A DNA stretch of 64,000 nucleotides from Erinaceus europaeus (lineage: Eukaryota > Chordata > Mammalia > Eulipotyphla > Erinaceidae), in NCBI RefSeq assembly GCF_950295315.1, contig NC_080175.1:71240609-71304608 (forward strand). Direction: 5' to 3'. Positions 596 through 63,873 of the stretch are shown here, in pieces. Below the pieces are notes generated by a model that was given only the letters and a program-made list of their open reading frames with translations, had not been told where the DNA came from and made no database searches. A program made the position numbers and the translations under genes. How positions within the stretch are numbered: position 1 is the first letter of the stretch; every line of letters starts with the position of its first letter.

Positions 596-697
596 TGTCT
601 TTTTGGTTATACTGGGGATTAAACTTGGGACATCTGGTCACAAATTCATGCAAATCATGTGCTCCTAATATATTGAAGTCTCTCCTTGGTTGCCACT

Positions 698-1415
698 TCT
701 TCTTCTAGCGTTTGCCCTTCTTCCATAGCCAGTCAACAGTGTCAGGTTGAGCCTGATGTAAAGTTTCGAGACCTCCTTTGAATCTGGAGAGGTGGCAGTC
801 GTTGACTGTGTGGGTCATAGTCTGTCTGTAGCGGCAGGGGCAGTTCGGGTCGTCTCTGGCTCCCCAGCGATGGAACATAGTGGCACACTGGCCATGGCCT
901 GTTCGATAGCAATTGAGGAGGGCCCAATCATAACGTGCTAGGTCAAAGCCGGGTTGATGCTTGCAGGGGTCTGTGACGAGCATGTTCTTTACCTCAGCTG
1001 ACTGCCAGCTCTGTTTCCAAGAGACTGGAACAGAGAAGTTCAGTGTAGGCGTAGGGGACCAGATTGGGTGACGAGACGTCAAGCGTTGGACAGGGTGGGC
1101 AAAGATATCCGCGTATATTGGTAGGTCCGGTCGAGTGTAGACGTGGGAAATGAACTTAGATAATGCTGCATCCCGACGAATATCTGGCGGGGCGATGTTG
1201 CTAAGAACTGGCAGCCGTGGAACCGGGGTGGAACGGATGGTTCCAGAAATTATCCTCATGGAGGAATATAATTTGGAATTGACCAAGTGGACATGGGGGC
1301 TACGGAACCATACTGGGGCACAGTATTCTGCAGTGGAATAGCATAATGCCAGGGATGATGATCGTAGTGTGGAAGTGCTCGCGCCCCATGAGGAGCTGGC
1401 CATGGTTCAGTGGCT
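698..1415 (-). mobile_element. Vingi-type non-LTR retrotransposon, 5'-truncated 3' end
   Basis: The copy is flanked by a perfect 12-bp target duplication, ttggttgccact, at 686-697 and 1416-1427, which fixes both ends. Read on the minus strand it ends with the stop codon TAG and a short GAA-repeat tail (seen as tcttcttct on the plus strand) rather than poly(A). The encoded protein matches the C-terminal third of Ingi-related Vingi elements, a clade known from hedgehogs. The copy is cut at its 5' end, so endonuclease and the reverse-transcriptase core are missing. The intact duplication and open frame suggest a young insertion. Confidence 0.88.
705..1403 (-). pseudogene. Vingi ORF, C-terminal fragment (232 residues open)
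   Basis: This open frame is the end of the Vingi polyprotein downstream of the catalytic reverse-transcriptase motifs. It starts in the conserved stretch with LCYSTAEYCAPVW and ends in VDWLWKKGKR. About 40-60 residues before the end lies a C-x-C-x8-H-x4-C pattern (CPCRYRQTMTHTVNDC), a zinc-knuckle-like signature common at the C termini of jockey/I/ingi-type elements. The M at the listed start is only internal, because the element is truncated by the insertion process. It carries substitutions relative to the other copies here (CPCR where the others have CPCG). No endonuclease or RT active site is present, so it is not a working gene. Clade assignment comes from remembered similarity. Confidence 0.8.
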
Positions 1416-1427
1416 TTGGTTGCCACT

Positions 1428-3162: not shown

Positions 3163-3965
3163 GTTAATTTCCTTTATTTTATTTTATTTGTAAAAATGAA
3201 ACACTGACAAAACCATAGGATAAGAGGGGTACAACTCCACATAATTCTCACCATCAGAACTCCATATCCCATCTCCTCCCTTGATAGCTTTCCTATTCTT
3301 TAACTCTCTGGGAGTATGGACCCAAGATGATTGTGGGATGCAGAAGGTTGAAGGTCTGGCTTCTGTAATTGCTTCCCCGCTGAACATGGGGGTTGACAGC
3401 TCTATCCATACTCCCAGTCTGTCTCTGTCTCTTTCCCTAGTGGGGTGGGGCTCTGGTGAGTCAGAGCTCCAAGACACATTGGTGGGGCTGTCTGTCCAGG
3501 GAAGTCTGTTTGGCATCATGCTAGCCTCTGGAACCTGTTGGCTGAAAAGAGAGTTAACATATAAAGCCAAAGAAGTTGTTGACTAATCATGAACCTAAAG
3601 GCTGGACTAGTGCTGATGAAGAGTTGCGGGGGGTGGGGGAGGGGTCTCTGTTCTGTAGATAGCTAGTAGGCATATTTTAGTTATATTCCAAAGGGCCTGT
3701 GGCTATACTAGTTTTTTTGTTTTCTTTTTTTCTCTGAGCCTGAAATCTGATATGCAGGTGGATCCAAGTTATTGTCTGGGGAGATGATGTAATGGCTAGA
3801 AAAAGGACCAGAAAGCTGGATGAGGGAAGAGAGTAGCTCCCAAATATGGGAAAGGTGTATAAATATTGTCGACTGTAAAATAAACCCCATCAATTTGATG
3901 TTATCTGGGGCCCATATTCAGCTTAGGAGCCTATGTGACCTCTATACCCCTGTAACTGACAGCAG
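3163..3965 (-). mobile_element. HCR composite repeat, 5'-truncated
   Basis: HCR is my name for a family with at least twelve copies here. Its 3' end reads on the sense strand as ctggtggtgggaattgtgtgg followed by an A-rich tail, which lies at about 3163-3200 on the plus strand. This copy keeps the tactagggaaagaga-type segment and extends 5' to a stretch containing a TATA-like ataaatatt near 3860. HCR 3' ends resemble an older L1 3' terminus, so L1-driven mobility is likely. Confidence 0.75.
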
Positions 3966-10215: not shown

Positions 10216-10721
10216 CCTGTATAGTCTTTATCGTCAGCCTGGAAACACCTTTTGAATGTTTTGTGATAGAAAAAAAATGGGGGGTTGTTAAAGCAATTAC
10301 ACAGTGGGACTAAGTTTATAATATATGCACATGTGTGTATGGACCATATTTTTATAATCTAAGTTACTGTAAGTAATTCTAACTTTCGTATACATTTAGT
10401 ATATATTCCAGGTATTGTTGATTCTTTGAAACTCCATGACCAACATGCTACCATTTAAAGACCTCACGCCACTGTAAATATCACAGTTCCTTTCTTCACC
10501 TAATGGCAGCTATAATATTGAGGAGTTCCTGGGTTGTCCACAAGAATGATTCATAGGACAACAAAAGTATTGCAAAGAAAGAAAAGACATGTGCTCTAGT
10601 AAGAGTATGATCTCCAAAAAGAAAAGGGCAAATACTGAATGATCTTGCTTAGAAATAGGACTTAATAAATAGCAACAGTGAGGGAGAAATGTTGATTGGG
10701 CATGATGTATTGCATGATGTA

Positions 10722-11040
10722 TGGCAGTCAGCTGAGGTAAAGAACAAACACCTCATCACAGACCCCTGCAAGCGTCAACCCGGCTTTGACCTAGCACGTT
10801 ATGATTGGGCCCTCCTCAATCGCTATCAAACAGGCCATGGCCGGTGCGCCGCTATGTTCCATCACTGGGGAGCCAGAGACGACCCGAACTGCCCCTGCGG
10901 CTACAGACAGACTATGACCCACATAGTCAACGACTGCCACCTCTCCAGATTCAAAGGAGGTCTCGAAACTTTACATCAGGCTCAACCTGACGCTGTGGAC
11001 TGGCTATGGAAGAAGGGCAAACGCTAGAAGAAGAAGAAGA
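10722..11040 (+). mobile_element. Vingi 3' end, 5'-truncated
   Basis: Forward Vingi copy beginning inside the ORF at tggcagtcagctgagg and ending with TAG and a GAA-repeat tail. The flanks attgcatga (10,709) and attgcatca (11,041) look like a slightly mutated target duplication. It is the shortest of the three coding 3' ends. Confidence 0.85.
10724..11027 (+). pseudogene. Vingi ORF, last ~100 residues
   Basis: The open frame runs in from the truncation point and carries the intact zinc-knuckle-like CPCGYRQTMTHIVNDC and the conserved C terminus VDWLWKKGKR. It is open throughout but lacks endonuclease and reverse transcriptase, so it is a dead 3' fragment. The ATG at 10,689 lies in flanking DNA and is not a Vingi start. 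Confidence 0.8.
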
Positions 11041-20885: not shown

Positions 20886-22167
20886 TCATTCAGGGAAAGT
20901 TAAATAGAATCTGCTGTAAAAGAGATCAGTATATATCTCATTATTGACTGAAGTAGGCTTTAACAAAGTCTTCCTATGACATAAGTCTCAATCAAGTTAA
21001 AATTTTAAAGCACAGAGATGAAGAGAGCCATTTATACATGAGAAAACAAAAGTTAAGTGTAGAAATATGTTTAGAAACTTTTGAGAGAGTCCGCATATCA
21101 AATACACAGCCTATATATTAAAAAGACTCAGTCTATGTTTTAAAAACTTCTAGACATACAATTAATTTTCCCCCTCTCATATTAATTAACTAGTGATTTA
21201 TATGACTACACTTCACTAGGAGTGTACATAAACACCATTCCCACCACCAAAAGACTGTAACCCATCCCTCTCACCCACTCCCACCCCCCACTGGCCCAGG
21301 AAGCTGCATGTCTACCCCTCACCACAGGGTTTTTACTTTGGTGCCTCAAAAGCCTAGACCAAGTAGATCAGAAGCAACCAATAGCACAGCTATATACAAG
21401 ATACTGGGTACTGTAGAGCAGACCCTAACAAAAGGACTTTTCAAAGTTAACCGAAGTGCCAAATAATGTGATGATAACATTAACTATCAATTGTCTTTTT
21501 GAACCCTAAGACAGCAGGAACCTCACATCACCACTATAGAGCCTCTACTTCCCCCAGTCCTGGAACCTTTGGATAGGGCCCACTTTCCTGTATGCCTCTC
21601 CCAATCCATATCAAATAATATTGGATCTGCCGATCGCAACCTAATCAACACAATTGCCACCTCAACATGCTTCAGCTCAGACTGTGTCCAGAGACTTCAC
21701 GTGTGGAATGACAACCCTTCAGCTTCATTACTCGGGTGAGACCTTTCCTTTCATAGTATTCTCTAATTCCATCCCAGGTGGTTCACTTTCTAAGAGTCCC
21801 AAAACCTAGATATACACCAGTTTCTGTGAAAGAGAGTGCATGTTCACTCGTATCCATAAACTACTGCAAAATATATACCTGAAAGCAGAAGTACACTAGA
21901 GTTTGCAGTGAGTACCCCCCTAACACTTCCTCTCCACTATTCCAAGCTTTGGGTCCATGATTGCTCAACAATTTGTTTGGCTTTGTATGTTAACTCTCTT
22001 TTCAGTCACCAGGTTTCAGATTCCATCAGGATGCCAGCCAGGCTTCCCTGGACTGAAGACCCCACCAATGTGGCCTGGAGCTCCGCTTCCCCCGAGACCC
22101 ACCCTACTAGGGAAAGAGAGAGGCAGACTGGGAGTATGGATGGACCAGTCAACGCCCATGTTCAGCG

Positions 22168-22237
22168 GGGATGCATTGGATCAACCTTCTCCTGGTGCAT
22201 CCCGTGAGTACCCATTCATTGGGGAAACTGAGGATCC
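22168..22237 (+). ncRNA. candidate HDV-like self-cleaving ribozyme (copy 1)
   Basis: By hand folding, P1 is gggatgc (22,168-22,174) with gcatccc (22,197-22,203). P2 is ggatc (22,178-22,182) with gatcc (22,233-22,237). P3 is acc (22,184-22,186) with ggt (22,194-22,196), closing a 7-nt loop ttctcct. P4 is ccca (22,211-22,214) with tggg (22,220-22,223). J4/2 contains ctga, with a candidate catalytic C at 22,228. The order P1, P2, P3, L3, P3', P1', P4, J4/2, P2' is that of the HDV family, and self-cleavage would fall just before G 22,168, the element's first base. One L3 base differs from copy 2. No folding program was run. Confidence 0.62.
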
Positions 22238-22258
22238 TTCCTAGCTGACTGAATCCAC

Positions 22259-22354
22259 ATGGATCCCAGTCACTTTCAAAGCCAGCAACAAGCAGCTCCT
22301 GACAGCTTTCAACCTGACGCTGTTGACTGGCTATGGAAGAAGGGCAAATGCTAG
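22259..22354 (+). pseudogene. 31-codon in-frame remnant of the Vingi ORF
   Basis: An ATG lies 21 nt after the ribozyme. The frame MDPSHFQSQQQAAPDSF runs in frame into the Vingi C terminus QPDAVDWLWKKGKC and the native stop. The first half is probably the Vingi ORF N terminus. In the sister copy the frame is shifted, so there is no sign that a peptide is kept. Confidence 0.6.
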
Positions 22355-22595
22355 AAGAAGAAGAAGAAGCGGGGAAGCAATTACAGAAGCCAGACCTTCC
22401 ACCTTCTACAACCCACAATGACCGTGGGTCCATACTCCCAGAGGGATAGAGAATGGGAAAACTATCAGGGGAGGGGGTGGGATATGGAGATTAGGTGGTG
22501 GGAATTGTGTGGAGTTGTACCCCTCCTACCCTATGGATTTATTAATTTATCCTTTCTTAAATAAAAAATAAATTAAAAAAAGAAATATGTTTAGA

Positions 22596-40228: not shown

Positions 40229-41389
40229 TTTAATTTAAGAAAGGATTAATTAACAAAACCATAGGGTAGGAGGGGTATAACTCCACACAATTCCCAACAC
40301 CCAAATCTCCATAACCCACCCCCTCCCATGATAGCTTTCCCATTCTCTATCCCTCTGGGAGCATGGACCCAGGGTCATTGAGGGTTGCAGAAGGTAGAAG
40401 GACAGGCTTCTGTAATTGCTTCCCCGCTGAACATGGGCGTTGACTGGTCTGTCCATACTCCCAGTCTGCCTCTTTCTTTCCCTCTCTCTGTGGGGAAGCT
40501 GAGCTCCAGGCCACATTGGTGGGGTCTTCAATCCAGGGAAGCCTGGCCAGCATCCTGGTGGCATCTGGAACCTGGTGATTGAAAAGAGAGTTAACATACA
40601 AAGCCAAACAAATTGTTGAGCAATCATGGACCCAAAGCTTGGAATAGTGGAGAGGAAGTATTAGGGAGGTACTCACTGCAAACTCTAGTGTACTTCTGCT
40701 TTCAGGTATATATTTTGCAGTAGTTTATGGATACGTGTGAACATATGCTCTCTCTCACAGAAACTGGTGTATATCTAGGTTTTGGGACTTTGTTAGAAAG
40801 TGAACCACCTGAGATGAAATTAGAGTGTACTATAAAAGGAAAGGTCTCACCGGAGTAATGAAGCTGAAGGGTTGTCATTCCACACTTTAAGTCTCTGGAC
40901 ACAGTCTGAGGTGAAGCATGTTGAGGTGGCAATCGTTGCGTTGGTTAGGTTGTGATTGGCGGATGCAATATTATTTGGTATGGATTGGGAGAGGCATACT
41001 GGAAAGTGGGCCCTACCCAAGGGTTCCAGGACTGGGGGAAGTAGGGGCTCTATAGTGGAGATGTGAGGTTCCTGCTGTCTTAGGGTTCAAAAAGACAATG
41101 GATAGTTAATGTTATCATCACATTATTTGGTAATTGGGTTAACTTTGAAAAGTCCTTTTGTTATGGTTTGCTGTACAGTACCTAGTATCTTGTATATAGC
41201 TGTGCTATTGGAAGCTTCTAATCTACTTGGTCTAGGCTTTTGAGAGAGTCCGCATATCAAATACACAGCCTATATATTAAAAAGATTCAGTTTGTGTTTT
41301 GAGAAACTTTGAGACATACAATTGATTTTCCCCCTCTCATATTAATTAACTACTGATTTATATGTCTACATTTTGCTAGGAGTGTACAC
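40229..41389 (-). mobile_element. HCR copy bounded by an 11-bp duplication
   Basis: gtgattttttt lies at 40,218-40,228 and 41,390-41,400. The A-tail and L1-like 3' end are on the left, the body is in reverse, and the 5' end reaches the segment with gagagagtccgcatatcaaa at about 41,240 and the L1-like antisense piece to 41,389. It has the same order as the 12.3-kb copy and serves as reference for the inverted 21-kb copy. Confidence 0.86.
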
Positions 41390-43076: not shown

Positions 43077-43708
43077 TTGGAATATAACTAAAATAGGCCT
43101 ACTATCTACAAAATGGAGACTCCCCAACTCTTCATCTGAACTATTCCAGTCTATAGGTTCATTATTAGTCAAAAATTTGTTTGGCTTTATTTGTTTAACT
43201 TATTTGTTTTTGAGCCACCAGGTTCCAGATGCTAACATGATGCCAGCCGGAATTCCCTGGGCAGACGACCCCACTAATGTGTCCTAGGAAGCTTTGCTTC
43301 CCTAGTTCTCTGCCCCACTAGGGAAAGAGAGAGACAGGCTGGGAGTGTGGATCGACCTGTCAATGCCCATGTTCAGTGGGGAAGCAATTACAGAAGCCAG
43401 ACCTTCCATCTTCTGCACCCCATAATGACCCTGGGTCCATTCTTGCAGAGGGATAAAGAACAGGAAAACTATCAGGGCATGGGATAGCTTAGGGAGTTCT
43501 GGTGGTGGGAATTGTGTGGAGTTGTACCCTTTTTATCCTATGGTTTTTGTCAGTGTTTCCTTTTTATAAATAAAAATTGAAAAATAAATCCCCATTCATT
43601 CAAATTCTTGATTCTAGAAATTCAGAAGTGGATATTTTCTTCCCTTGAAGCCTCTTTGAGACCGTTTTTATAGGTTTTGTATACAGTCTAATTAACTGTG
43701 CTTCAATT

Positions 43709-46318: not shown

Positions 46319-46419
46319 AGTAGTATATCTGCTGAGTTTGTTCTAATATACTCCAGTGGAATAGATTTGTTTATTCCGAACACACACTGCTCATGACTTT
46401 ATGTCACTAAGACACTGAT

Positions 46420-46523
46420 TCTTCTAGCGTTTGCCCTTCTTCCGTAGCCAGTCAACAGCGTCAGGTTGGGCCTGATGTAAAGTTTCAAGACCTCCTTTGA
46501 ATCTGGAGAGGTGACAGTCATTG
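46420..46523 (-). mobile_element. Vingi 3'-end fragment (about 100 bp)
   Basis: ttcttctagcgtttgccctt followed by the antisense Vingi C-terminal codons to gaggtgacagtcattga. It encodes the last ~30 residues (HLSRFKGGLETLHQAQPDAVDWLRKKGKR). The right end abuts a SINE-C; no target duplication was found. Confidence 0.8.
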
Positions 46524-46529
46524 AAAATA

Positions 46530-46690
46530 ACATATAGGGCCAGTGAAATAGCTCACTTATATAGTATGCTACTTTGCCACATGTGTGACCCAGATTCAAG
46601 TCTTGCTTCCAACACACGGAAGGAGGCTTCAGTGCTCTGGTGTCTTTCTCTGCCTGTCTGTCACTACTAAAACAAAATGAAACAAAATTT
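46530..46690 (+). mobile_element. SINE-C copy
   Basis: Forward copy: agggccagtgaaatagctca, tgtgacccagattcaagtct, ctttctctgcctgtctgtc and the A-rich end aacaaaatgaaacaaaat. Confidence 0.72.
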
Positions 46691-48642: not shown

Positions 48643-49330
48643 CTGACTTTTTTTTTTTTTTAAGAAAGGAGACATTAACAAAATCATAGGATGGGGGGTA
48701 CAACTCCACACAATTCCCGCCACCCAATCTCTATATCCCGTCCTCTCCCCACTAGCTTTCCCATTCTCTATCCCTCATGGACCCAGGGTCGTTGTGGGAT
48801 GCAGAAGGTGGAAGGTCTGGCTTCTGTAACTGCTTCCCCACTGAACATGGGCGTTGACTGGTCGACCCATACTCCCAGTCTGCCTCTCTCTTTCCCTAGT
48901 AGGGTAGGTCTCTGGGGAAGCGGAGCTCCAGGATGCATTGGTGGGGTCTTCAATCCAGGGAAGCCTGGCCGGCATCCTGATGGCCTCTGGAACCTGGGGG
49001 CTGAAAAGAGAGTTAACATACAAAGCCAAACAAATTGTTGAAGAATCATGGACGCAAAGGATGGAATAGTGCAGATAAAGTGTTGGGGGGTACTCAGTGC
49101 AAACTCTAGAGTACTACTGCTTTCAGGTATATATTTGCCCTGGTTTATGGATACGTGTGGACATATGCTGTATCTCCTGGAACCTGGTCTATATCTAGGT
49201 TTTGGGACTTTGTCAGGAAGTGAACCACCTGGGATGGAATTAGAGAATACTATGAAAGGAAAGGTCTCACCCGAGTGATGAAGCTGAAGGGTTGTCATTC
49301 TACACCTGAAGTCTCTGGACACAGTCCAGA
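48643..49330 (-). mobile_element. HCR copy with long open frames
   Basis: Reverse HCR from the A-tail at 48,645 to the segment ending at cacagtcc (49,330). The sense strand has an open frame of 184 codons (48,768-49,322) and a second overlapping frame of 84 codons (48,775-49,029). Related frames recur in the 21-kb and 40-kb copies. No known protein family is recognised. Confidence 0.8.
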
Positions 49331-53906: not shown

Positions 53907-53976
53907 GGGATGCATTGGATCGACCTTCTCGTGGTACATCCCGTGAGTACCCATTTATTGGGGAAACTGACGATCC
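53907..53976 (+). ncRNA. candidate HDV-like self-cleaving ribozyme (copy 2)
   Basis: P1 gggatgc (53,907-53,913) with acatccc (53,936-53,942), one C:A mismatch at the last pair; P2 ggatcg (53,917-53,922) with cgatcc (53,971-53,976), 6 bp; P3 acc (53,923-53,925) with ggt (53,933-53,935); L3 ttctcgt, like the UCCUCGC loop of HDV; P4 ccca (53,950-53,953) with tggg (53,959-53,962); J4/2 with ctga and candidate catalytic C 53,967. The target duplication shows the first base of P1 is the first base of the element, as expected for a 5'-processing ribozyme such as those of R2 and L1Tc. Hand-folded only. Confidence 0.65.
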
Positions 53977-53997
53977 TTCCTAGCCGACTGAATCCAC

Positions 53998-54072
53998 ATG
54001 GATCCCAGTCACTTTCAAAGCCAGCAACAAGCAGACATCAGGCTCAACCTGATGCTGTTGACTGGCTACTGA
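53998..54072 (+). pseudogene. Vingi start codon with shifted frame
   Basis: The ATG lies 21 nt after the ribozyme, as in copy 1, and begins MDPSHFQSQQQA. After the deletion joint the frame differs from the Vingi C terminus and stops after 24 residues. It marks the probable Vingi ORF start. Confidence 0.55.
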
Positions 54073-54222
54073 AGAAGGGTAAACGCTAGAAGAAGAAGCA
54101 TCCTTCCTTTAAAAAAATTAATTTAATTTTTTGAAGTTTATTTATTTATGAGGTATTAGTGTTGTTGTGCGGGCCGCAGAGAAGAGATAGAGGAGGTCCG
54201 GAGCGAAGAGGGAACACAAATC

Positions 54223-54228
54223 TTTATT
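54223..54228 (-). terminator. LTR polyadenylation signal
   Basis: aataaa on the minus strand, about 65 bp before the 3' end of the LTR and about 150 bp after the TATA box. Confidence 0.7.
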
Positions 54229-54376
54229 TGCACTGGCACCTCAGAGTTGGGTGCTAGAGAAGCAGGTTGGGCCACGTGGAGGTAGCGAAAATGGCTGCCT
54301 CACGCAGTAACCTTTCCTGCGTCTGAACACTGAAGTGAAGTGCTGGCAAGAGAGAGAGGTGCGGAAGAAGAAGGGC

Positions 54377-54383
54377 TTTTTAT
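54377..54383 (-). promoter_or_regulatory. LTR TATA box
   Basis: tataaaa on the minus strand, in the expected U3 position. Confidence 0.72.
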
Positions 54384-54759
54384 AGAAGAAGGGCTTTCGC
54401 GAGAATGGGAAGAGGGAGGAGTAACCATAGCACTCCAGGATAGGATAATAACTCTCATGAGAATGGGAGGGGGGAGGAGTAAACAAAGCACTCCAACTAT
54501 CGTGGGGAATTGACAGTGCCCTGAGGGCACAACATGGCGGATCAGGCACTCTGAGGATGTCCCAACTCTCGCGGGAACTAGCAGTAGTCTGAGGGGACAA
54601 CATGGCAGATGTGACTGCATCTGCACAATTTCCCAGCATATTAGGAGAGGCAGAACAGAGCACTGATCAGCTCTGACTTAAAGTGACTCCTGGGGTTGAA
54701 CCTGGGATAACTGAGACCTCAGGCATGCAAGTCTGGTACACTGCCAGCCTAGAAGCACA

Positions 54760-55380
54760 TCTTTTAAGCTAAGGATGGAGTCCATGGCATGACAATTAAC
54801 TTTAGCATAAATAAGACAAACGGTAAATAGCATCTTTTGCCTCAGCTGACATCACTCAGTTGTTAGTGCTCTTCTGCTCTGATGTGAAATTGACTCCTAT
54901 CCCTTTCGACTGAGCCTCCCCTGTGCCAGATGCATTTTTCTGTTACAGTAGAGTGCTGGTGGTTTAGTACTTTTATTTGCAGACCATTATCCTCCTTTAA
55001 GACTCTAATTGCTTGAAGTTAACTTTAATTACTTTGACCTAAAATTAATTGATTTCCTTGGAGGTTAGCTTCTCCCAATAATGTACTTTTCTGACTGAGA
55101 ACCCAGGCTTAATTGCTGCAGTTTGACTCTCTGTGTTTTCTACTAAGGCAAGAGGTTGTTCCAGGACAGGAAAGCCATTTGATCCTGCTATCAAATCACA
55201 AGATCAAACATAACGGCATTTGATTTTGTCTTTAATACAAATCTATCATTTATTTAGTGAAAAACAAAATTTTATTTTCCTTTGTATTTCCGTGTCTAGG
55301 AAAACACATGATTATACAAAGTATAAAATTTATGCTTTGCATTTATATTCCACTTATTTATTATTATTATTTATTTACTT
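54760..55380. other. sequence without recognisable feature
   Basis: No gene or repeat recognised. Confidence 0.4.
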
Positions 55381-63180: not shown

Positions 63181-63308
63181 ACATTGGGGCTTGGTGGTGG
63201 TGCAATCAGTAAGTAAAGCACACACATTACCAAGGGCAAGAATGGTGGTTACAGTCCCCAGTGCCCACCAGCAGGGGGCGAGGGGAAATTTATCAGTGTT
63301 GGAGGAGG

Positions 63309-63873
63309 TTGCTACTGTCACGTATTTCTCCTCTTACAGAGAAATTCCTATCACCCTGGTTCCATGGCTGCCAGTTCTTAGCAACATCGCCCCACCAGAT
63401 ATTCGTTGGGATGCGGCATCATCTAAGTTCATTTCCCACGTCTACGCTCGACCGGACCTGCCAATATACGCGGATATCTTCGTCCACCCTGTCCAACGCT
63501 TGACGTCTCGTCACCCAATCTGGTCCCCTACACCTACACTGAACTTCTCTGTTCCAGACTCTTGGAAACAGAGTTGGCAGTCAGCTGAGGTAAAGAACAA
63601 ACACCTCATCACACACCCCTGCAAGCGTCAACCCGGCTTTGACCTAGCTCGTTATGATTGGGCCCTCCTCAATCGCATGGCCTGTGCGCCGCTATGTTCC
63701 ATCGCTGGGGAGCCAGAGACGACCTGAACTGCCCCTGCGGCTACAGACAGACTATGACCCACATAGTCAACCACTGTCACCTCTCCAGATTCAAAGGAGG
63801 TCTCGAAACTTTACATCAGACTCAACCTGACGCTGTTGACTGGCTACGGAAGAAGGGCAAACGCTAGAAGAAG
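63309..63873 (+). mobile_element. Vingi 3' end, 5'-truncated, nested in a SINE
   Basis: The 12-bp duplication tgttggaggagg at 63,297-63,308 and 63,874-63,885 bounds it. It ends with TAG and a GAA tail. Relative to the 10.7-kb copy, 13 bp are missing after cctcaatcgc, shifting the frame. Confidence 0.87.
63330..63867 (+). pseudogene. Vingi ORF fragment with frameshift
   Basis: The frame carries LPVLSNIAPPDIRWDAASSK and continues through SWKQSWQSAEVKNK to DWALLNR at about 63,675, closely matching the 0.7-kb copy. The 13-bp deletion then moves the rest (MFHRWGARDDLNCPCGYRQ through VDWLRKKGKR) to another frame. The zinc-knuckle-like motif is intact in that frame. The coding capacity is dead, both by truncation and by frameshift. 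Confidence 0.82.

Follow-up and report, generated by a model that had tools for sequence, protein, structure and literature searches.

A predicted HDV-like ribozyme at the 5' end of a Vingi-type LINE and its short derivatives

The element and its relatives in the window

The window (the whole 64,000-nucleotide stretch of DNA analysed) carries a 192-bp element, copy A, at 53,907-54,098 (+), the borders of which are read from the sequence. A 12-bp target-site duplication, AGCATCCTTCCT, stands immediately before G53907 (53895..53906) and again after an AAG-repeat tail (54097..54108), its initial AG being common with the GAAGAAGAAG tail. This duplication makes G53907 base 1 of the insert, a position that is therefore independent of any ribozyme layout. 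Copy A is a short non-autonomous Vingi-derived element in which a predicted 5' ribozyme part is joined to the 3' end of a Vingi LINE. The LINE-derived part (54035..54098, +) consists of the end of the coding region, a stop and the AAG-repeat tail, and comparison with longer copies identifies the ATG at 53998..54000 (+; element nt 92) as the one that opens their ORF.

The first 70 nt follow the strand order of the HDV ribozyme, P1-P2-P3-P1'-P4-P2', with J1.1/4 between P1' and P4. On the forward strand, the 5' strand of P1 (GGGATGC, 53907..53913) is separated by J1/2 (ATT) from the 5' strand of P2 (GGATCG, 53917..53922), which is followed by P3 (ACC/GGT) with its loop L3, TTCTCGT (53923..53935), the 3' strand of P1 (ACATCCC, 53936..53942), P4 (CCCA/TGGG with a 5-nt loop, 53950..53962) and the 3' strand of P2 (CGATCC, 53971..53976). 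P4 is placed by the fold layout, and both strands of P2 by the layout together with the strict descriptor described below. P1 comprises six pairs and a C.A mismatch at the seventh, P2 has all six of its pairs, and L3 contains C22 as well as U20 and G25, the two partners of the reverse wobble. The G at 53943 (+) may form the sole Watson-Crick pair of P1.1, with C53928. The putative catalytic C lies in J4/2, GAAACTGA, at 53967 (C61; +), an assignment made by its place in the layout, not by function, and cleavage is predicted immediately before G53907. An earlier sequence-only reading had proposed this layout, including a P1 with one mismatch, P2, P3, L3, P4 and C53967, and had placed the start of P1 at base 1 of the element behind a 12-bp duplication; all of this can be read directly from the DNA.

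Around 20 nt downstream, a possible second P2' (ATCCA after CTGA) at 53988-53996 could pair with 53916-53920 in both window copies and thereby compete with P2. In L1Tc, the region downstream of the ribozyme attenuates it (excerpt of PMC4035085). Directly beyond the 3' flank of copy A, at 54140-54760, two overlapping stop-to-stop frames of 125 and 141 codons lie on the reverse strand.

A second copy, copy B (22168..22363, +), is absent from the earlier reading. It is 90% identical to copy A and has a different internal deletion junction. Its ribozyme part occupies 22168-22237 (+) with the putative catalytic C at 22228; P1 is a complete 7 bp, while G25 (here C25) and the sixth P2 pair are missing. 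Copy B is inserted in a repeat whose empty form also occurs in the window, where four empty paralogues were found. Reading its exact 5' junction is ruled out, the GGGA of the element repeating the target, which is TTCAG[C/T]GGGGAAGC in the four empty paralogues. The host repeat family has several copies (22048-22483, 48735-48958, 40315-40536, 3266-3499 and 43257-43483, among others) and provides empty-site paralogues usable for dating the insertion.

The two junctions differ, with copy A keeping about 9 more bases of the LINE 3' end and copy B about 14 more of the 5' part; the latter recur in the longer copies L010, L012 and L047. Simple deletion thus cannot turn either copy into the other, and the pair implies a longer parent that had this 5' end as well. 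Four LINE fragments in the window have 3' ends that match the last 60-64 bp of the element at 92-93% identity. One of these, at 696..1425 (-), is 5'-truncated, is flanked by a target duplication and has its last 64 bp in common with the element, and the others are 3' fragments at 10668..11036 (+), 46419..46642 (-) and 63212..63873 (+). A Pfam search of three of the window's LINE 3' fragments gave no match at E<=1, RNase H included; their LINE nature is drawn from protein relatives (98 found, 8 with RVT_1) and from the longer copy L063 described below. Searches of viral and prokaryotic collections for relatives of the LINE protein confirmed none. A tRNA- or 7SL-type SINE head was rejected for the short element, as its 5' part is common with the LINE's own 5' end, and coding sequence was rejected as a reading of the ribozyme stretch, which precedes the ATG. 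The short element shares both ends with a longer element and has target duplications, as a non-autonomous short partner should. We take the LINE and the element to be Vingi and the host to be a likely hedgehog, names that come from the earlier reading and the literature rather than from comparison with a named Vingi sequence.

Fit to the HDV fold

The strict descriptor, which was written after the candidate was known, specifies a Watson-Crick P1 of seven pairs with one mismatch permitted only in the last two, a P2 of 5-7 pairs, a P3 of 3, an L3 of 6-8 nt and C.RA preceding P2'. When both strands of the window are searched it matches exactly twice, at 22168 and 53907, each of them base 1 of an element, whereas 40 dinucleotide-shuffled windows contain 0.325 matches on average. 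When the 75 nt from base 1 were shuffled 500,000 times for each copy and the descriptor was anchored at base 1, none of the copy A shuffles fitted and one of the copy B shuffles did. A looser descriptor admitting G-U pairs was set aside in favour of the strict one, its 191 and 97 window matches leaving it without power. The P3-L3 core, ACCTTCTCGTGGTA, differs at one base from a primer for the catalytic region of the Drosophila R2 ribozyme (excerpt of PMC3414825); it has a single match in the window, where 0.01 would be expected. With two mismatches the primer core also matches copy B, at a level where 0.36 such matches are expected by chance. The exact ribozyme pattern has no match in the viral_contigs collection. 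Nested folds of the first 74-80 nt reach about -22 and -27 to -29 kcal/mol and are more stable than the P1+P3+P4 subset (-15.0 and -19.4 kcal/mol), P2 being uncounted in both figures.

Conservation was examined in 78 oriented genomic copies, 41 of them distinct, at loci picked by similarity; L031 (the same place as copy A), L061, L079 and L080 (indels that shift the numbering) and L062-L064 were left out. C61, U20, C22 and A64 are invariant, and G25 occurs in 70 of the 78 rows; the strict descriptor fits 62 rows at base 1 and fails on 16. Paired cells amount to 257/287 in P1, 235/246 in P2, 123/123 in P3, 164/164 in P4 and 38/41 in P1.1, exceeding all six slid versions of the layout except for P1.1 at shift +2 (40/41). 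P1.1 would consist of a possible C22-G37 pair beside U21.U38; this is present in 38 of the 41 distinct rows, a number that rises to 40 when the partner is taken two bases further along. In HDV-like ribozymes P1.1 is one or two pairs (excerpt of PMC4908430).

Pair 16/65 is the only one with standard-pair changes on both sides, occurring as G-C, G-T and A-T and also as A-C, A-G and G-G. Pair 2/35 changes from G-C to G-T. In 7 of 20 fetched copies that extend into the start of the ORF (L066, L068, L070, L073, L075, L076 and L083), C35 is replaced by T, and the P1 pair is kept as G2-U35. Subfamilies differ at 16/65 and 7/30. A complete set of 20 pairs plus U20, G25 and C61 occurs in 8 of 18 ORF-start copies; among the 60 other rows, which are mostly short copies, it occurs once. 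If one unpaired position is tolerated while G25 is kept, the numbers rise to 15 of 18 and 49 of 60, respectively. The short subfamilies therefore mostly carry one weakened pair. Since most copies are dead and the loci were picked by similarity, this conservation reflects roughly the sequence of the source copies and is no proof of selection.

The sequence-only reading had looked to a covariance model for support, and the outcome is a weak match in the right place. Rfam RF00094 (HDV_ribozyme) matches both window copies with the right start and strand, at 20.2 bits (A) and 23.0 bits (B). Their E-values, 1.1 and 0.31 in a search of 401 bases with 4,227 families, do not reach significance by themselves. 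A scan of the window at Rfam gathering scores gave no match, and because copies of the element score 19.9-32.3 bits, below the RF00094 gathering score of 50, the element is not filed under that family. RF00094 is absent at E<=10 from two 3.6-kb control stretches, in which other families reach lower E-values by chance. The alignment is out of register at J4/2 of copy A, so the match supports mainly P1, P3 and L3. RF00094 also finds 10 of the 20 fetched ORF-start copies at E<=10, on the sense strand and at their 5' end, with scores from 19.9 to 25.4 bits.

Across the 2.72-Gb genome, where 86 of 48,892 candidates were scored, RF00094 has one listed match at E<=10, namely L061 (32.3 bits, E 8.16). 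This is another copy of the element, matched at base 1 and flanked by an 11-base target duplication with one mismatch. The same search also gives matches in 4 of 14 control genomes; with an E-value of 8.16 the match is therefore not significant alone and, as few candidates were scored, its place outweighs its score. The CPEB3 ribozyme (RF00622), chosen as a positive control, had no match in the genome (59 of 91,904 candidates scored) or in the 14 control genomes. This silence does not show absence of the CPEB3 ribozyme; it indicates that the genome-wide covariance searches are insensitive here and prove neither a mammalian host nor a best-in-genome rank for the element.

Genomic copies and the longer LINE

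Queries with the first 100 bases of copies B and A yielded 1,127 and 190 first-look candidates, and the best 40 of each were kept, window copy B being L001 and window copy A L031 among these loci. Of the best 80 rows, which are 97-100% identical across the 100-base query, 78 reach base 1. Judged from these similarity-chosen rows, young copies often have a complete 5' end. A target duplication is detectable in 48 of 61 copies, the same test giving none in 13. The duplications are mostly 10-13 bp long, at scattered sites, and matches of just 7-8 bases may be chance. Among the 48, the duplication stops immediately before G1 in 17, extends 1-6 bases into the element in 12, falls 1-3 bases short of G1 in 15 and lies farther off in 4; those that extend into the element represent short homology with its start.

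A 350-base query covering the leader and the first coding part returned 1,695 candidates, of which the best 40 begin at query base 1 (7), 2 (26), 3 (4) or 5 (3), and 20 were fetched with flanks. The 16-nt upstream flanks of the 18 ORF-start copies that have no internal shifts show a mean identity of 0.28 and a maximum of 0.50. Full-length copies that extended 5' of the GGG would have contradicted the sequence-only reading. What is found instead is that 44 of the 48 duplications end within -3 to +6 of G1 and that the upstream flanks are unlike one another.

The longer copies L062, L063 and L064 are extended cuts of L012, L047 and L010, respectively. L063 (G000:C97:8762500-8768500, -) is a 3.1-kb LINE copy with endonuclease and reverse transcriptase domains and with the same 5' sequence as the element, except that base 1 is T. 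Its ORF opens at the nt-92 ATG, and the tail of the element recurs about 3.1 kb later. Searched in separate pieces, it matches Exo_endo_phos_2 (PF14529, 2.4e-12), Exo_endo_phos (PF03372, 6.5e-11) and RVT_1 (PF00078, 5e-31). The frame is broken by one stop and one frame change, and by its sequence L063 itself is not a working copy. A missing RNase H domain is taken to separate Vingi from Ingi, and a 234-aa C-terminal piece of this one LINE copy gave no Pfam match at 0.01. L064 is a copy of about 630 bp with an internal deletion; L062 has the 5' coding part, and the stretch taken contains no LINE 3' end. The link to a Vingi-type LINE that had been drawn from the sequence alone thus holds at both termini, through the 92-93% 3'-end identity to the four window fragments and through the 5' end shared with the 3.1-kb EN/RT LINE.

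The AAG tail of L063 is followed directly by part of a short element (about its nt 56-192), with a single target duplication, AACAGAAAATAG, enclosing both. This tandem has the appearance of a template jump from one element RNA to another during a single insertion. The 5' end is itself repeated in tandem in two copies, over the first 10 bases in L021 and about 19 in L080, possibly by slippage or jumping of reverse transcriptase at the RNA end.

Proposed mechanism, rival readings and known systems

The anatomy of the first 70 nt, in the short element and in the 3.1-kb LINE copy alike, makes it very probable that they form an HDV-like ribozyme, whose predicted cut immediately ahead of base 1 would release the element RNA from host read-through. 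The facts in the earlier reading are correct, and so, very likely, is the meaning it gave them. All steps beyond the sequence anatomy are inference. The element would be transcribed by read-through from upstream host sequence, its RNA would fold into the double pseudoknot, and attack at the bond before G1 would be helped by C61 (53,967). The released RNA would begin with a 5'-OH, and the ribozyme would make up most of its 91-nt leader; working long copies would be translated from the nt-92 ATG. Target-primed reverse transcription would then proceed up to the cut end, and the second strand would be joined by short homology, so that every complete copy would again possess the ribozyme. Joining of this kind has been modelled for R2 copies cut at the 5' junction (excerpt of PMC3774820) and fits the spread of duplication offsets around G1. 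What the short copies retain, namely the ribozyme, a little additional 5' sequence and the 3' end, probably suffices for mobilisation by Vingi proteins.

The lesions in the two window copies differ in their probable consequences. About a quarter of R2 elements have one or two mismatches atop P1 and about a third have P2 mismatches (excerpt of PMC3774820), so the C.A of copy A need not be fatal. For L3, the G-to-A change in the jewel wasp R2 abolishes detectable cleavage, whereas in HDV it does not (excerpt of PMC3774820), and U with C at the two L3 positions falls outside the active combinations given for HDV (excerpt of PMC3386971). By this analogy the ribozyme of copy B is likely weak or dead.

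Such lesions, namely the C.A in P1 of copy A and the G25C change and lost P2 pair of copy B, would also be expected of a ribozyme that once worked, with the short copies spreading otherwise or by a weak ribozyme from few active source copies. That only 1 of 60 rows besides the ORF-start copies keeps every pair and signature base, and that subfamilies differ at 16/65 and 7/30, agree with such decay. It is nevertheless very unlikely, given that 8 of 18 ORF-start copies are intact, that no more than one position is unpaired, with G25 present, in 15 of 18 and that 78 of the best 80 rows, similarity-picked and 97-100% identical, cover base 1. A chance resemblance, in which a 70-nt leader happens to fit a pseudoknot descriptor, is scarcely credible. 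It would accommodate the unremarkable Rfam E-values (1.1, 0.31 and, genome-wide, 8.16) and the lower ones attained by unrelated families in control stretches, but not a fit that begins at a base 1 set independently by the target duplication, that 0 and 1 of 500,000 anchored shuffles reproduce, that includes a P3-L3 core one mismatch from R2 and whose single genome-wide RF00094 match listed is a copy of the element.

It is also unlikely that the leader, though descended from an HDV-like ribozyme, now acts chiefly as an internal promoter and/or translation leader, with the transcription start setting the 5' ends. Trypanosomatid Pr77 is both promoter and ribozyme (excerpts of PMC4035085 and PMC4748587), a fixed transcription start would likewise give 5' ends at G1, and the leader is just 91 nt long and ends at the ATG. 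A promoter, however, needs no fold of the kind retained here: all 78 rows keep C61, U20, P3 and P4, G25 survives in 70 of them, and 8 of 18 ORF-start copies have every pair.

If release by an HDV-like ribozyme is the correct reading, Vingi joins the ribozyme-ended clades. Release of this kind would let a LINE whose leader is 91 nt long regain its complete 5' end with no need of an upstream promoter, and a mammalian LINE and short-element pair would provide many natural ribozyme variants within one genome. The HDV-like type of ribozyme is known, and Vingi would be a new clade for its predicted members. The chances are about even for a wider proposition. According to it, the 5' ends of a mammalian LINE family with recent activity, and of all its short parasites, are defined by an HDV-like ribozyme occupying almost the whole 91-nt leader, the genome holds hundreds or more self-cutting RNAs, and ribozyme release is ancestral to Ingi and Vingi and was kept across the split of trypanosomes and animals. 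The ancestral reading is drawn because trypanosome ingi and L1Tc do likewise, and direct comparison of the Vingi, ingi/L1Tc and R2 ribozyme cores makes the question of ancestry testable.

In a literature search for a report of a Vingi ribozyme, no title or abstract start names one, most subscription papers lying beyond reach. The 2011 list of Ruminski reportedly comprises R2, R4, R6, SART, Baggins and RTE, Vingi being absent, and Kojima is said to have described, also in 2011, eleven short Vingi families in the European hedgehog. The Vingi-1N families of the European hedgehog are short non-autonomous Vingi derivatives like copies A and B, a correspondence made by description only. Vingi-1N3_EE has 311 copies at <1% divergence according to an excerpt of PMC3183009 that mentions no ribozyme. 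Vingi is an Ingi-related clade that has expanded in hedgehogs (excerpts of PMC3183009 and PMC5753468).

The closest parallel is offered by the trypanosomatid L1Tc/NARTc and ingi/RIME pairs, in which an EN/RT LINE and its shortened partners have, like the Vingi element, a 5'-terminal HDV-like ribozyme, theirs being an active 77-nt one with the Pr77 hallmark (excerpt of PMC4035085). The hosts differ, being trypanosomatids in one case and an animal, very likely a mammal, in the other, and the likeness is one of layout and position. L1Tc has an RNase H (excerpt of PMC4035085), whereas none was found in the examined Vingi LINE copy, L063. Drosophila R2 has its ribozyme at the 5' end, as the element does, with a P3-L3 core one base apart, and the R2 SIDEs resemble the short Vingi copies in combining the ribozyme with the 3' end (excerpt of PMC3414825). 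In contrast to the Vingi copies, which occupy scattered sites with target duplications, R2 inserts into 28S rRNA genes. In mammals, the HDV-like family has been placed in the CPEB3 gene; the CPEB3 ribozyme is intronic and lies outside mobile elements (excerpt of PMC4908430). The human LINE-1 ribozyme is, like the one predicted here, a self-cleaving RNA within a mammalian LINE, but it is twister-sister-like rather than HDV-like (excerpt of PMC11620745).
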